42,176 bases of DNA, from the NCBI GenBank assembly GCA_947588955.1, contig CANPYX010000021.1, positions 1 through 42,176 on the forward strand, read 5' to 3'. Position numbers and translations under genes: made by a program. Under the pieces are notes generated by a model. The model made no database searches and was not told the origin of the DNA. It saw nothing but the letters and a program-made list of their open reading frames with translations. Of the stretch, positions 2,020 to 42,176 are shown in pieces (positions within the stretch are counted from its first letter, which is position 1; every line of letters begins with the position of its first letter). This DNA comes from an uncultured Oscillospiraceae bacterium. GTDB taxonomy: Bacteria; Bacillota; Clostridia; Oscillospirales; Oscillospiraceae.

Positions 2020-2193
2020 TCAAATATTTTTCCGACGACATGCGCGTCGGAAAAATCACCTTATGTCGCGCAAGTGTGCCGCCTACGGCGGCGCGCGCAG
2101 CGCGACAGCAGGAAAAACCCCTTGAATTCCGCAGAATTCAAGGGGTTTTTCCGCACGTTCCCCTTTGCCAAAAAAGGCAAAGCCTTTTTTGGC
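2020..2193 (+). repeat. Structured intergenic element, copy 1 (four hairpins)
   Basis: Four consecutive hairpins fill most of the gap between the AEC transporter and the convergent DUF378 gene. H1 is 2027-2055 (11-bp stem). H2 is 2064-2107 (outer stem TGTCGCGC/GCGCGACA, inner GCCGCC-TAC-GGCGGC at 2078-2092). H3 is 2111-2152 (19-bp perfect stem, loop CGCA). A linker GCACGTTCCCC follows at 2153-2163, then H4 at 2167-2193 (12-bp stem, loop AAA). A full second copy is at 19024-19208 with different but compensated stems, and a partial third is at 42067-42176. H4 ends 4 bp from the DUF378 stop codon and may act as a two-way terminator. Orientation is given as H1 to H4. Confidence 0.85.
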
Positions 2194-18967: not shown

Positions 18968-19023
18968 GTGATCCGAATCCTTTCAGACTGTAGACAAACC
19001 CCAGAAAAGAGTGAGGTCCCTTA

Positions 19024-19208
19024 TCAAATATTTTTCCGGCGGCATGTACGTCGGAAAAATCACCTCTTGTCGCGCAAGTGTGTCGCCTCCGGCGACGCGC
19101 GCCGCGCGACAGCAGGAAAGCCCCCGTGAAAGGTCCGCAGACCTTTCACGGGGGCTTTCCGCACGTTCCCCTAAACCCAAAAAAAGGGCAAAGCCCTTTT
19201 TTGGGTTT
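19024..19208 (+). repeat. Structured intergenic element, copy 2 (four hairpins)
   Basis: Same order as the copy at 2020-2193. H1 is 19031-19059. H2 is 19068-19111 with inner stem GTCGCC-TCC-GGCGAC (19082-19096). H3 is 19115-19160 (21-bp stem, loop CGCA). The linker is GCACGTTCCCC. H4 is 19173-19208, with loop AAA. Linkers and loops match copy 1 almost base for base, while the H3 and H4 stems have different sequences but keep pairing, and H2 shows a C-to-T change matched by G-to-A. H4 overlaps the stop codon of the convergent GH32 gene. No gene reads into the element from the left (rpe diverges). Confidence 0.85.
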
Positions 19209-21564
19209 AAAATATTCCCCCCATCCTCGCCACGTACAGCTCCTCGATGGTCACGTTCCCCGTGGCAAAGAGGTCCATTCCGTGGGACTCTGGATCGTCT
19301 GTGTACGCCCTGATGCTCAGCGCCTTGGCGTCGTTGAAGAAGCCCTCCACCAGCGACCTGTCAACGTAGATCTCCATTGTGAGCTTCCCGTCCGGGGCGG
19401 CGAGCGCCCCAGAGGCGGTGGAGGCCTTACAGCCCTCGCCCTTGTTTTCCGTGTGCCCTGAGATAGTCCCCTCGCCCACGTCATAGGTGTAGGTCGTGGC
19501 GTCCCACTTGCCGCCCTGCTTCAGGCTTATCCCAAACTCCGACGCGCCCGAGACGTCAGCGGTGAGGCGTATGTACAGCATATCCTCATCTATCCCCTCC
19601 AACGCGGCGTTGGCGTCCTCAATACTCACGTTCTCAAGATCCGCCAGCGTCTCCTCCTCCAGTGTCGCGAGTGTGTCGATGGGCGAGATCATCATGTCCG
19701 ACCCGTCGTCGGAGAGCCATATCCTCCTGGCGATCCCCACGGTGTGCGCCCAGCCGGAGGCGCCCTGCTCGGCGGCGCCCCTCTGGTCCTGCATAATGGA
19801 AAACATATATATGTCCCCGCTCACGGGGTCCACAAGGCACGACGGCCCCGTAAACACGTTAGCGCCGTAATCAAGCAGCCTCGGCTGTTCGCCGAACTCC
19901 GGGTCCGGCGTAAATTTGCCGCTCTCGGCGTCAAAATCCCCCAGCCAGTAGTAAACCTTGTTGTCCGCAGAGGACGCGGGAGCCGGAGATATGGAGAAGA
20001 AATATTTCGTTACCGTCCCCGCCTCGTTGCTGACGGGCAGCAGTATGGGCAGCTCCCAGGATGTCCCGTAAAGCGAGGACTGGTTCGGCATCTCATACAC
20101 AGGCCCCTTGTAGACCCAATTCTGCTCCACCGTCCCGTCGTCCTTCAGCTCCAGTGTGTCGGAGGTGTATAGCAGCGCCGTGCCCCCGTTTGTGGTGGCG
20201 GAGCCAGAGCAGACCACCATGTACCAGCTGTCCCCCTCCTTCCATATGGAGGGGTCCCTGAACTCGCCCGCGCGCCCCTGGCCCTGCTGCTGTATGACTG
20301 CCAGCTCGTCGCATATCACCCAGTCCGTGAGCTCCGGGTCATTGAGGTCCGCCGGGTACGCCACGCCGATATTCTGATTCGATATGAGCCCCGGCGTGTC
20401 CCGGAAGGCGTCGTTGCCCGCGGTGAAGAACAGGAGCGGCACGCCGTTTTTGTCAAGCGCCGCCCCGCCTGACCACACCCCGTCGGGCACTACCGAGCCC
20501 TCGGTGGGCGTTATGGCCTCCTTCACGGGCCGCCAATTCACCATATCCTCGCTCACCATGTGTCCCCAGCAGATATTCCGCCAATAGGAGCCCGTCATGT
20601 TCTCCTGGAAGAACAGATGGTACACCCCGTTGTAGTACACCGGCGCGTGGGGCTCGTTCATCCAGAACTGATAGGGCCCCGCGTGGAACTGCGGGCGCGT
20701 GTAGTCGCCGGTGAGTATGTTCTGGAGCCAAATGTCCGAAAACTCTATCTCCGGGACCTTCACACCGTCGTAATATTCCTTTATCTCCTCAGCCGTAAGC
20801 GCCGTGGACCAGAGCTTCACCTCGTCCAGATAACCGCTGGCGGCGTTGACGTTCCCCGCCACCAGGTTCTCCACCGGGTTCTGGTTGCGCCCCACGGTAA
20901 GCCCCTTGTTGTTGGCGCCGACTATGTCCCCGCCGGAGAAGCCGGAGCCCACGAGCTCGCCGTTCAAGTAGAGGCACATCTTCCCCTCGTCCTCGTCGTA
21001 GGTCGCGGTCACCAGGTTCCAGGCGTACTTCTGGAGCCTCGCCTCGTCGGACCAGACCGACAGCCACTCGTAGCCCGTGCCCACCTGGAAGCTGAGCCGC
21101 CCGAATCTCTCATAGCCCAGAATGAAGCCCTTCTTGGCGTCCTTGTCGAACTGGCAGACTATGCCCGTGAGGGAGTCCGTCCCGTTCTCAGCGGCGTGGG
21201 GGTCGTCCCATTCAAAGGTCCTGGGCGCTATCCACGCCTGTACCGTGAGTGCGGGACCCTCCACGGTCACGTCGTTGCGCTTATAGCTCACATAGGTGCT
21301 TGTGCCGTCAAGGAGCACGCACCCGCCGCTTATTCCCTCCTCCCGCCACTGGGGTTCCTGGTCCTCCATATACGTGGCGTGGGAAAACTGATAGCTCAGA
21401 TCGCTATCCGGCAGCTTGCCCGCGGAGTCCTTGACGGTGGTGCCGGAGCCCTCGTCAAACGCCAGGTGCGCTATGAGCTCCTTGCTGTGCGCGCCCCCTC
21501 CGCAGGAGGCGAGCACCAGCACCATACAAAGTACAAGTGCGGCAAGCGCAAAGCATTTTTTCAC
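19207..21564 (-). CDS. Exported lipoprotein with LamG-type and GH32 domains
   Basis: A 785-aa surface lipoprotein. The lipobox is LASC with Cys21. Residues about 28-265 form a LamG/concanavalin-like domain (AHLAFDEGSGTTVKDSAG; LTVQAWIAPRTF; GYLDEVKLWSTALTAEEI), and about 285-620 a GH32 five-bladed propeller, followed by the GH32 C-terminal beta-sandwich (EIYVDRSLVEGFF). GH32 enzymes cleave fructans or sucrose. Catalytic positions: WMNEPHAP at 301-308 carries Glu304 where the family nucleophile Asp is expected, RDP is intact at 436-438, and the acid/base Glu504 is in SWELP instead of WECP. The start is the GTG at 21564 (AAGGAG 7 bp upstream), not the TTG at 21585. It is co-transcribed with the 732-aa lipoprotein. 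Confidence 0.82.
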   Translation of the reverse strand: MKKCFALAALVLCMVLVLASCGGGAHSKELIAHLAFDEGSGTTVKDSAGKLPDSDLSYQFSHATYMEDQEPQWREEGISGGCVLLDGTSTYVSYKRNDVTVEGPALTVQAWIAPRTFEWDDPHAAENGTDSLTGIVCQFDKDAKKGFILGYERFGRLSFQVGTGYEWLSVWSDEARLQKYAWNLVTATYDEDEGKMCLYLNGELVGSGFSGGDIVGANNKGLTVGRNQNPVENLVAGNVNAASGYLDEVKLWSTALTAEEIKEYYDGVKVPEIEFSDIWLQNILTGDYTRPQFHAGPYQFWMNEPHAPVYYNGVYHLFFQENMTGSYWRNICWGHMVSEDMVNWRPVKEAITPTEGSVVPDGVWSGGAALDKNGVPLLFFTAGNDAFRDTPGLISNQNIGVAYPADLNDPELTDWVICDELAVIQQQGQGRAGEFRDPSIWKEGDSWYMVVCSGSATTNGGTALLYTSDTLELKDDGTVEQNWVYKGPVYEMPNQSSLYGTSWELPILLPVSNEAGTVTKYFFSISPAPASSADNKVYYWLGDFDAESGKFTPDPEFGEQPRLLDYGANVFTGPSCLVDPVSGDIYMFSIMQDQRGAAEQGASGWAHTVGIARRIWLSDDGSDMMISPIDTLATLEEETLADLENVSIEDANAALEGIDEDMLYIRLTADVSGASEFGISLKQGGKWDATTYTYDVGEGTISGHTENKGEGCKASTASGALAAPDGKLTMEIYVDRSLVEGFFNDAKALSIRAYTDDPESHGMDLFATGNVTIEELYVARMGGIF

Positions 21565-33759: not shown

Positions 33760-33813
33760 GCACTTCTAACGAAAACGGAACCGCAAAAGCGGTTCCGTTT
33801 TCATTAGAAGTGC
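33760..33813 (-). terminator. Long terminator hairpin of tRNA-Leu
   Basis: 25-nt arms at 33760-33784 and 33789-33813 with a 4-base loop. The only non-Watson-Crick position (33770/33803) is a G-U pair in the minus-strand transcript but a mismatch on the plus strand, pointing to formation in the tRNA transcript. The outer end of the stem includes the discriminator and last two acceptor bases of the tRNA. A TTTT lies in the descending arm. Confidence 0.65.
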
Positions 33814-33891
33814 GGGTAGTGGGACTTGAACCCACACGGTATTGCCACAGGAACCTAAATCCTGCGCGTCTGCCAATTCCGCCATACCCGC
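33811..33891 (-). tRNA. tRNA-Leu (anticodon UAG)
   Basis: Full cloverleaf on the minus strand: acceptor stem GCGGGTA/TACCCGC (33891-33885 / 33818-33812), discriminator A at 33811, anticodon stem CAGGA/TCCTG with loop TTTAGGT and anticodon TAG at 33857-33855, a long variable arm as expected of Leu, and T-arm GTGGGTTCAAGTCCCAC. CCA is not encoded (ACTT follows). It reads CUA codons and, by wobble, other CUN. It is transcribed alone from the promoter at 33910-33938. Confidence 0.95.
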
Positions 33892-37791: not shown

Positions 37792-37840
37792 GAATGAACT
37801 TGTCAAAAAAGCGCTCCGCCCTTTTTTGACAAGTTCATTC
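37792..37840. terminator. Perfect 20-bp bidirectional terminator
   Basis: The arm at 37792-37811 is fully complementary to 37821-37840, loop of 9. The inner end of the stem is an A6/T6 run, giving a T-run on either strand. It separates the ABC operon from the convergent histidine kinase, and its right arm reaches two bases into the kinase stop codon. Confidence 0.85.
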
Positions 37841-40472: not shown

Positions 40473-42059
40473 ATGAAAGCTTTTTCCTTTGACAAACTGA
40501 GAAAAACCGCCGCCGGAGTCCTCGCGGCAGTCATTATTTTCGCTGTCCTGTCTCCCCTCGCCCCCCGCGCCCGCGCATTGGACGACCCGGCCGTGGACGC
40601 GGAGGCGGCGATTTTGGTGGATATTGACGCGGGAAGCGTTCTCTACTCCCTCAACGAATCCGTCCGCCGCGCCCCGGCAAGCCTTGTGAAGATAATGACC
40701 GCGCTTCTGGCTGTCGAATCCTACGAGCGCGGCGACGTGAAGCTGAGCGACAGAGTGACCGTCACCGACGCTGACTTCTCCGACATCGACTCCGACGGCT
40801 CCACCGAATATAAGCGCGACGAGACCGTCACCTTTGAGGACCTGCTTTACGCCTCCTTCGTCTCCTCGGCAAACGAGTCCTGCAACGCCATCGCCCGCAC
40901 CGTATCCGGGGATGTCCCCACCTTCATCTCCATGATGAATACCCGCGCCGCCGAGCTGGGGTGCAAGGACACAAGCTTTGGCAACACCCACGGGATGCCG
41001 AGCGACTTGAACTACTCCACCGCCTACGACCTTTACCTCATAACCCGCGAGGCGCTGACCCACAACCTCTTTAAGCGCGTCTGCTCCGCCAAGACCTGGA
41101 CGGTGGACGCCACCAACGTCTCCGACGCCCGCGTACTGAGGACGGGGAACAACCTCCTCAACGACAGGAGCGGCTACTACTACGAGTACGCCTCCGGCGT
41201 CAAGACCGGCTACACCGACGCCGCCGGCTACTGCCTCATCGCCACCGCCTCAAAGGACGGGCGCAACCTTCTCAGCGTCATACTCGGCGCTAAGTCCGTC
41301 ATAGCCGAGGACGGCAGGACGGAGGTAAAGAGCTACACCGAGACTAAGCGCCTTATGAACTGGGGATTTGACAACTTCAACCTGCGGGAGCTCCTCACCA
41401 CCATGAAGCTCATGGCGGAGATACCCGTCCGGCTTGGCAGGGGCGCCAACTCCGTCGTCCTCAGGCCAGAGGAGAACGTCACGGCCCTCCTCCCCAACGA
41501 CGCGGACCTCACACAGGTGAAGCTGGAGCCTGTGCTCTACGAGGAGGGCACTCTCACAGCGCCGGTGGAGAAGGGCGCCGTCCTTGGCGAGGTCAAGGTC
41601 TCCTTTAACGGCGTGGACTACGGCACCGTGAATCTCATAGCCAACACCGCCGTGGAGCTGGACCGCACGGCGTACATAGGCTCCGAGATACGCGAAACAC
41701 TCCGCAACAAATACGTCCGCCTGACCATAACCGTTCTCGTCCTGCTGGTGATACTCTACGTCGCCTTCATAATCTACTACAACATCCGCCGCGCCAACAA
41801 GCGCAAAACCGCCGCGGAGCTCGCCCGCAGGCGCGTACAGGAGTACCGCCGGAGCCAGGAGCCCGCGGGTGCGTCCCGCAGGCAGACCTACGCCGACTAC
41901 CCCCTCCCCCGCGAGGACCGGTACAGCCGCGTACCCGCCGAGACCCGCGCCACCCAGCGCCCCGCCCAACCCACCACCGGCAAGAGCTTTGAGGAGATCG
42001 AAGAGCTCCTCCGCCGCCAAAATGAGGAGTTAAATAACAGGACCCGTGGCGATAAATAA
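40473..42059 (+). CDS. D-alanyl-D-alanine carboxypeptidase (penicillin-binding protein, DacF/PBP5 type)
   Basis: A 528-aa exported, membrane-anchored enzyme that trims peptidoglycan stem peptides. Signal peptide about 1-36. The serine-peptidase S11 motifs are complete: SLVK with Ser70/Lys73, SAN at 132-134 and KTG at 244-246. A C-terminal beta-rich PBP5-like domain follows (about 300-400), then a transmembrane helix (about 417-437) and an arginine/glutamine-rich cytoplasmic tail of about 90 residues (RRQTYADYPLPRED), longer than in typical PBP5, whose anchor is terminal. GGAG lies 9 bp before the ATG. The partial repeat element begins 7 bp after the stop. Confidence 0.93.
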   Translation: MKAFSFDKLRKTAAGVLAAVIIFAVLSPLAPRARALDDPAVDAEAAILVDIDAGSVLYSLNESVRRAPASLVKIMTALLAVESYERGDVKLSDRVTVTDADFSDIDSDGSTEYKRDETVTFEDLLYASFVSSANESCNAIARTVSGDVPTFISMMNTRAAELGCKDTSFGNTHGMPSDLNYSTAYDLYLITREALTHNLFKRVCSAKTWTVDATNVSDARVLRTGNNLLNDRSGYYYEYASGVKTGYTDAAGYCLIATASKDGRNLLSVILGAKSVIAEDGRTEVKSYTETKRLMNWGFDNFNLRELLTTMKLMAEIPVRLGRGANSVVLRPEENVTALLPNDADLTQVKLEPVLYEEGTLTAPVEKGAVLGEVKVSFNGVDYGTVNLIANTAVELDRTAYIGSEIRETLRNKYVRLTITVLVLLVILYVAFIIYYNIRRANKRKTAAELARRRVQEYRRSQEPAGASRRQTYADYPLPREDRYSRVPAETRATQRPAQPTTGKSFEEIEELLRRQNEELNNRTRGDK

Positions 42060-42066
42060 CTTATCT

Positions 42067-42176
42067 CCAAAAAAGGGCAAAGCCCTTTTTTGGAAGGGAA
42101 ACGTGCGAAAAAGGGGCTGTGAAAAAAAGAGCATCTACACGCTCGGCTTTTCACAGCCTCGGTTTTTGTGTGGAAA
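42067..42176 (-). repeat. Structured intergenic element, copy 3, truncated by window edge
   Basis: Same end module as the other two copies, in reverse orientation. H4 is CCAAAAAAGGGC/GCCCTTTTTTGG at 42067-42093. The linker corresponds to GCACGTTTCCC on the minus strand (42096-42106). A hairpin in the H3 position is at 42115-42157 (11-bp GGCTGTGAAAA/TTTTCACAGCC stem). H1 and H2 would lie beyond the window. The H4 end is 7 bp from the carboxypeptidase stop codon, the same relation to a convergent gene as in copies 1 and 2. Confidence 0.7.

Follow-up and report, generated by a model that had tools for sequence, protein, structure and literature searches.

A high-copy structured repeat at gene ends of an uncultured Oscillospiraceae bacterium, with hairpins that differ as units between close relatives

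Small structured repeats have been described in the pneumococcus. In the accessible part of PMC3049150, BOX, RUP and SPRITE are presented as small structured repeats (modular in the case of BOX) that are enriched between convergent genes, occur nested in one another and are presumed to be mobile and non-autonomous; terminal inverted repeats and target duplications are reported there for BOX and RUP. According to the available portion of PMC3733652, REPs are hairpins of 20–40 bp, also found as dimers, that carry a GTAG or CGTC tag, and those with GTAG are tied to Y1 transposases.

The stretch of DNA analyzed here (the window; 42,176 nucleotides) is contig 21 of a 58-contig, 2.56-Mb draft genome (G000) of a gut bacterium. 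A first-pass annotation had described a four-hairpin intergenic element at positions 2020–2193 and 19024–19208, with the module order H1, H2, H3, linker and H4 and the loops CGCA (H3) and AAA (H4), and both copies are seen in the sequence; with H4 they span 2012–2195 and 19018–19209. The boundaries had to be moved, as the conserved unit begins 6–8 bases further left and stops at CGCACGTTCCCC. We defined the element, E1, as H1, H2, H3 and the CGCACGTTCCCC tail, about 150 bases. Both full copies follow one plan: H1 (12 bp), the linker CACCTYWT, H2, GCA, H3 (19–21 bp) and the tail GCACGTTCCCC, followed by H4.

Copy 1 (2012–2163, + strand) comprised a CCCCCACTTCAAAT leader, H1 (2026–2056; a 12-bp stem with the loop ACATGCG), H2 (2064–2107; two stems stacked on each other, with conserved U.G pairs and the internal loop AA/GCA), H3 (2111–2152; a 19-bp perfect palindrome with the loop CGCA and a hypervariable middle) and the conserved tail (2153–2163), all on the + strand. 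It scored 164 bits with the covariance model R1, whose training set included it, and it folded much more stably than shuffled sequences, with z = −12.7 on the + strand and −9.3 on the − strand. Copy 2 (19018–19171, + strand) was the best R1 match of the genome (178 bits) and contained H1 at 19030–19060, H2 at 19068–19111 and H3, a 21-bp perfect palindrome, at 19115–19160 (all + strand). The H4 hairpins, to which no strand was assigned, lay at 2165–2195, bidirectional-terminator-like and adjoining the stop codon of a DUF378 gene (2198–2410, − strand), and at 19172–19209, terminator-like and overlapping the stop codon of a GH32 gene (19207–21564, − strand). H4 had been listed as a module; a hairpin is present there, but its sequence is very variable and is mostly the terminator of the neighboring gene, not a fixed module.

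A third copy had been proposed at 42067–42176 in reverse. H4 (42066–42094, no strand assigned), beside a D-Ala-D-Ala carboxypeptidase gene (40473–42059, + strand), and the right end of an E1 on the − strand (42096–42113; the tail and apparently the 7 outermost bases of one H3 arm) account for 42066–42113, but neither H1 nor H2 lies in the window, and another repeat (GGGGCTGTGAAAAAA...) breaks the copy from about 42114. This repeat also occurs at other contig ends. It starts with GGGGCTGTGAAAAA, sometimes has an inverted end to match (TTTTTTCACAGCCCC), and was found in H3 or behind the E1 tail at window 42114–42176 and at the contig ends L022, L035, L043, L047, L104 and L106; possibly it is an insertion sequence at which the assembly breaks off.

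The suspicion of a high genomic copy number was borne out by the covariance-model search of the genome and its relatives that the first-pass annotation had proposed, with about 100 copies here and many matches in relatives. Built from 34 copies and 149 positions long, model R1 yielded 148 matches in its own genome at E ≤ 0.01, both strands of palindromic parts counted. From 183 matches in the extracted loci and the window, 97 primary copies were kept by hand after opposite-strand palindrome matches and weak ones were dropped; the genome thus holds at least 97 copies, and further R1 matches lie outside the extracted loci. A sequence profile counted 98 copies, some of them partial. At E ≤ 1e-6, other-strand duplicates included, three congeners had at least 150 (G020), 60 and 1 (G181) matches, and at E ≤ 0.001 R1 matched 90 of 200 genomes of the family, in 62 of 106 genera.

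A second model, R2, was confined to the H1–H2 core (22 sequences). Core matches in 26 family genomes numbered 115, 72, 69, 46, 30, 28, 28, 20, 17, 15, 11, 7, 6, 6, 6, 2 and 1, with nine zeros in genomes that had been chosen from R1-negative ones. In a sample of 391 genomes of the class (E ≤ 1e-5, strict filters, 10 candidates scored per genome), R2 matched four, three of them in the same family. The fourth, G208 of another family of the class, had a single 43-bit match (L182) that shares the H1 loop GCGTGTA, has a CTCTTTTA linker and is perhaps a distant relative. As far as sampled, E1 is restricted to one bacterial family.

No named family was recovered, in agreement with the first reading of the locus. 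At gathering score the window gave only a tRNA in Rfam and 18 relative loci gave none; matches at permissive thresholds (best E 3e-5) were all below gathering score, belonged to unrelated families and were set aside. Copy 2 (158 bases) had no match in phage or plasmid records, and a 28-base pattern had no exact match in viral contigs. No description of E1 was found in the literature searched, including the accessible text of PMC10969869, PMC3733652, PMC8040213, PMC12306157 and PMC3049150. E1 is real: a structured repeat that is confined to the family and has no name in the sources searched.

The fold of E1 was strongly supported by covariation. In the alignment of 34 copies from the genome (47 pairs), 98.6% of cells were paired and 25 pairs showed double changes; none of 500 shuffles reached the pairing, double-change or covariation values. 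The count of further pair types was unremarkable (93 of 500 shuffles were as high). The core alignment A3, with 22 sequences from 20 genomes and 15 genera, was 96.8% paired and had double changes at 24 of its 31 pairs. No shuffle out of 500 was as high on four of five measures, and seven were on the fifth. Two U.G pairs of H2 were kept in 21 and 13 of the 22 core sequences. The ends of E1 read CYC(A)AAATT.. and ..CGTTCCCC, and its mean GC was 0.50 against 0.58 in the own-genome loci extracted. No terminal inverted repeats were detected when the left 22 nt of 80 copies were compared with the reverse complement of the right 22 nt (mean best local score 4.28; shuffled, 4.38). In other genera, GCCTCGCAGAGTT and a further hairpin often precede H1–H2, and an H3 of this type was absent from the loci viewed. 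This 13-base motif with its hairpin stood before H1 in the family loci L054, L056, L057, L062, L064, L067–L069 and L151 and was not seen in the window's variant.

Pairs that depart from Watson–Crick were counted in 94 own copies and 91 distinct copies of the sister genome G588, the genome of locus L236. H1 and the basal part of H2 had 60 G.U cells against 11 A.C, compared with 42 against 34 in H3 (Fisher p = 1.5e-4; both genomes), a count in which cells are not independent and one H1 position, G.U in most copies, is omitted. Because the bias lies in the core and not in H3, the core is read as one folded + strand and H3 as a palindrome without a preferred strand.

E1 was placed consistently at gene ends. 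The tail-side gene was read towards E1, and thus antisense to it, in 78 of 93 copies (binomial p = 2e-11; 97 copies examined, 4 without a called right neighbor), and in other genomes of the family this held for the core element in 25 of 33 cases (p = 0.005; 34 loci examined, including one from the same genus). Directly to the right of 92 of 94 copies, and to the left of 28 of the 94, there was a stable hairpin (MFE ≤ −15). Two structures of the window were recorded beside these: a 23-bp bidirectional-terminator-like hairpin without E1 at 37792–37840, where the congener G020 (L170) has E1 by the matching gene, and a 25-bp inverted repeat, 96% complementary, at 33760–33813, which touches a tRNA gene (33811–33891, − strand).

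These features leave room for E1 as a putative functional structured RNA, for example a 3'-end or antisense regulatory one, kept by selection at many genes, with copy number reflecting recruitment. Strong core covariation across 15 genera, a U.G pair kept almost throughout, the wobble bias to one strand and the constant place at gene ends all fit an RNA. So does a TTGACA-like word within about 35 extra leader bases shared by 10 of 98 own copies, including copy 2 of the window, and by 1 of 97 G588 copies; a promoter in some copies is possible on this account. The longer leader (..CTGTTGACAAACCCC.AGAAAAGAGTAAG..) was observed at window 18985–19020 and in L074, L080, L103, L105, L124, L129, L133, L145 and L146. 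Against such an RNA, no more than 54 of 94 copies had a left neighbor read in the + direction (− in 40), so that the + strand would in many cases depend on a promoter of its own, and a profile of 97 copies showed no conservation beyond about 14 bases upstream. The single match in congener G181, the lack of any in the nine family genomes chosen as R1-negative and the variation in presence between sister genomes also argue against it. We regard the RNA explanation as unlikely, though by no means negligible.

The reading that we favor, with moderate confidence, is that E1 is a non-autonomous mobile repeat, confined to the family and directed at terminators, whose core is read as a single strand and whose hairpins are shuffled by ectopic conversion. 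It is supported by the jump in match number within the genus, from 97 primary copies here to the three congener counts of at least 150, 60 and 1. E1 (about 150 bp) would insert behind intrinsic terminators at gene 3' ends, with the tail towards the terminator. The older H1–H2 core would be recognized as one folded single strand, either RNA or single-stranded DNA, by a mobility factor, as suggested by the strand bias of its wobble pairs, and H3 would be an addition seen in this genus. Once E1 is in place, its hairpins would act as hot spots of exchange: H2 and H3 would give way, with both arms together, to the H2 and H3 of other copies, so that pairing stays nearly perfect although the sequence is highly variable. 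The probable cause of replacement is hairpin breakage followed by ectopic gene conversion; SbcCD is a nuclease that cleaves hairpins. No service to the cell would be needed to explain E1. Its polymorphic presence, its orientation to terminators, the unit-wise differences of its hairpins and the strand bias of its core are observed directly.

Insertion at terminators is consistent with the sites found empty in G588, whose flanks are about 96% identical to those of G000. When 98 own copies were compared with the extracted G588 loci, 45 shared both flanks, 7 the right only and 4 the left only, 2 had flanks on two different loci, and 40 had none; 3 of these 40 were later found occupied in extracted G588 loci. 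At least 48 of 98 sites, about half, are therefore common to both genomes, which indicates that E1 also persists vertically. The flanks of 12 of the 40 copies were searched in G588 (5 others were settled separately), and 7 of the 12 sites had no intact E1. The site of L078 (compared with L411) was cleanly empty, with the terminator kept; L096 and L084 had other sequence in place of E1; both E1 and H4 were missing at L095, L099 and L108; and L073 retained a short reversed remnant. Longer G588 spacers that overlapped weaker R1 matches were seen for L079, L090 and L094; the halves of L085 lay on different G588 contigs, and L092 was not found. L103/L370 was another empty site. The unit that inserts can vary, since H4 was gone too at 3 of the 7 sites.

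The L078 element starts CTCAAAATT and ends CCCCCTC, and the AAAAA on both of its sides is the A tract of the terminator. Of 94 copies, 49 had a run of at least four A on the left and 69 had one on the right, compared with 9–32 of 92–97 controls on the left and 6–12 on the right. The A tract is possibly a target duplication, seen at one clean site only, or could be the target itself.

Among families that might move E1, the Y1 transposases (PF01797) and the reverse transcriptases (RVT_1, PF00078) were searched, and neither tracks E1. This negative result and the lack of terminal inverted repeats both weigh against a mobile repeat. Mobilization as an RNA by a group II intron or another reverse transcriptase, in the manner of a bacterial SINE, would suit the RNA-like strand bias of the core, and group IIC introns insert behind terminators. 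G000 and the congener G117 have one RVT_1 match each. There was none in G020, which has at least 150 R1 matches, nor in G043, G193, G152, G034 (78% complete) or G157, which hold 20–72 core matches, and the element's presence in all six makes this route very improbable. A resemblance of GTGCG (reverse strand) to the starts of group II introns was dropped on inspection.

A REP- or PATE-like element moved by a Y1 transposase (IS200/IS605, RAYT) would likewise account for a hairpin array with strand asymmetry and high copy number. This is mostly refuted, and we give it hardly any weight: neither a GTAG nor a CGTC tag stands at an end, and PF01797 had no match in G000 (96% complete), in G117 or in G064, G043, G152, G034, G091 and G005, all of which have E1 or its core. 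If a dedicated mover exists for the mobile repeat that we favor, it would represent a mobility system that lacks terminal inverted repeats and, on present searches, a Y1 transposase or reverse transcriptase as well.

The hairpins of E1 differed at sites shared with G588. The 45 shared-site pairs were reduced to 41 (2 partial pairs and 2 more without segments were dropped), and copies interrupted by a second repeat, E2, were left out of the H2 counts. H1 was identical at 20 of the 41 sites, the GCA linker at 39 and H3 at 7, while H2 was identical at 5 of 34. H2 and H3 varied independently: of the 34 sites without E2, both were the same at 1, only H2 at 4, only H3 at 4 and neither at 25. Twenty H3 pairs of equal length, drawn from the 94 own and 91 G588 copies, had 56 of 403 pair positions altered on both sides and 11 on one side, with 1 of 80 loop bases changed, and at least 3 of the 8 basal H2 pairs were changed on both sides at 14 of 34 sites. 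The H3 of 32 own copies was also found in G588, with both flanks shared in 7 cases, one flank in 3 and neither in 22. The counts fit the replacement of hairpins as units between sites. Short flanking segments also varied (the 7 bases on the left were identical at 14 of 41 sites, linker 1 at 13 of 41), which counts against unit replacement as the full account.

Copy 1 of the window is a case in point: it and L343 are nearly alike in flanks, H1 and terminator and differ in H2 and H3. Copy 2 matches L236 on the right side up to and into H3 but not to the left of E1. Minimal forms, in which the tail or terminator follows H1 almost at once, were seen at L243:3864–3953, at L264 (behind the orthologous GH32 gene) and at L394, suggesting deletion of H2 and H3; L138/L394 is a deletion that leaves H1.

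Such differences might in principle be assembly artefacts of repeats in metagenome bins: G588 is metagenome-assembled, G000 is a draft in 58 contigs, and several contigs end at E1. However, shared sites keep both flanks, mostly at 92–99% across as many as 700 bases, and enclose different hairpins, and orthologous gene ends of the congener G117 likewise have an E1 whose hairpins are not the same (four pairs viewed, both flanks matching in one). We find an artefact barely credible. That the hairpins are simply terminators, alike through a terminator consensus, is next to impossible and is already refuted for H1–H3: a terminator-like H4 and the A and T tracts of H3 speak for it, but the U tract of H1 is on the wrong side, plain BLAST retrieves other copies at 79–96% identity (E down to 2e-53), and one empty site retains its terminator without E1.

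The second structured repeat, E2, about 105 bases long, lay inside H2 of 13 own copies seen. Its layout is GGGG(T/C)CCCC-hairpin-GGGGAGAGGAGGAGC..GCGCCTGAG-variable hairpin-CGAGGTTAAGCG..GCGACGACGA, and it reached no Rfam family at gathering score. The loci with E2 (L131:170–276, L135, L144, L149, L156, L162, L238 and others) have it either inserted in H2 or free-standing, and once within itself. All 7 basal H2 pairs were formed in none of 10 own copies with E2 (6 pairs in 6 copies, 4 pairs in 4), compared with 77 of 84 without it; in G588, the basal H2 was fully paired in 2 of 3 copies with E2 and 81 of 87 without. The own-genome data suggest that H2 pairing relaxes once E2 interrupts it, the numbers being small and the G588 cases adding nothing.

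A bolder proposal, which we put forward as tentative and on the doubtful side, is that behind E1 stands an undescribed recombination or mobility system, of which E1 is what can be seen and by which entire stem-loops are copied from one chromosomal site to another, dispersed one. The conserved single-strand H1–H2 core would guide an enzyme to terminators, and hairpin cassettes would be exchanged as paired units; the system may act together with E2, which inserts into hairpins.

Covariation is usually taken as proof of a functional RNA. Replacement of hairpins at the DNA level can imitate it, because H3, the most variable stem, stays almost perfectly paired without strand bias while whole hairpins differ between very close relatives and recur elsewhere. 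The H1–H2 core has a strand bias that is absent from H3. Genomes with about 100 copies each, one of them a sister at about 96% identity, allow both processes to be measured.

The first impression of the locus, a REP- or MITE-like repeat or a structured RNA class, was upheld in kind, and neither of the results that the first-pass annotation had named as refuting it was obtained. E1 is interspersed in the genome, its fold covaries strongly and its presence is polymorphic, but it lacks the hallmarks of REPs (the GTAG/CGTC tag and RAYT) and of classical MITEs (terminal inverted repeats). With structured RNA motifs of Rfam it shares a covarying consensus fold, conserved loops and wobble pairs, but it reached the gathering score of none and its copy number is of the repeat type. 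Like classical MITEs, as characterized in the accessible parts of PMC10969869 and PMC3049150, E1 is short, non-coding, intergenic and highly base-paired, and it has the feature of being AT-rich relative to its host; unlike them, it is without terminal inverted repeats, and no related autonomous element was found among the few families searched. REPs and REPINs, in the available portion of PMC3733652, are also palindromic, intergenic, high in copy number and often downstream of genes, whereas E1 has three hairpins over 150 bases, no tag and no Y1 transposase match in G000. It resembles the pneumococcal BOX, RUP and SPRITE repeats, as far as the accessible text of PMC3049150 describes them, in being a small, interspersed, structured and nested repeat that is modular, as BOX is, enriched between convergent genes and presumed mobile and non-autonomous. 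It differs from BOX and RUP, with BOX compared by description, in the lack of terminal inverted repeats, in its module plan, in a core that spans many genera and in its whole-hairpin differences. E1 appears to be a novel kind of small mobile element and not an ordinary gene feature; by the features tested it is neither a REP nor a classical MITE, and it is closest in kind to the BOX-type repeats of the pneumococcus and to REPs.
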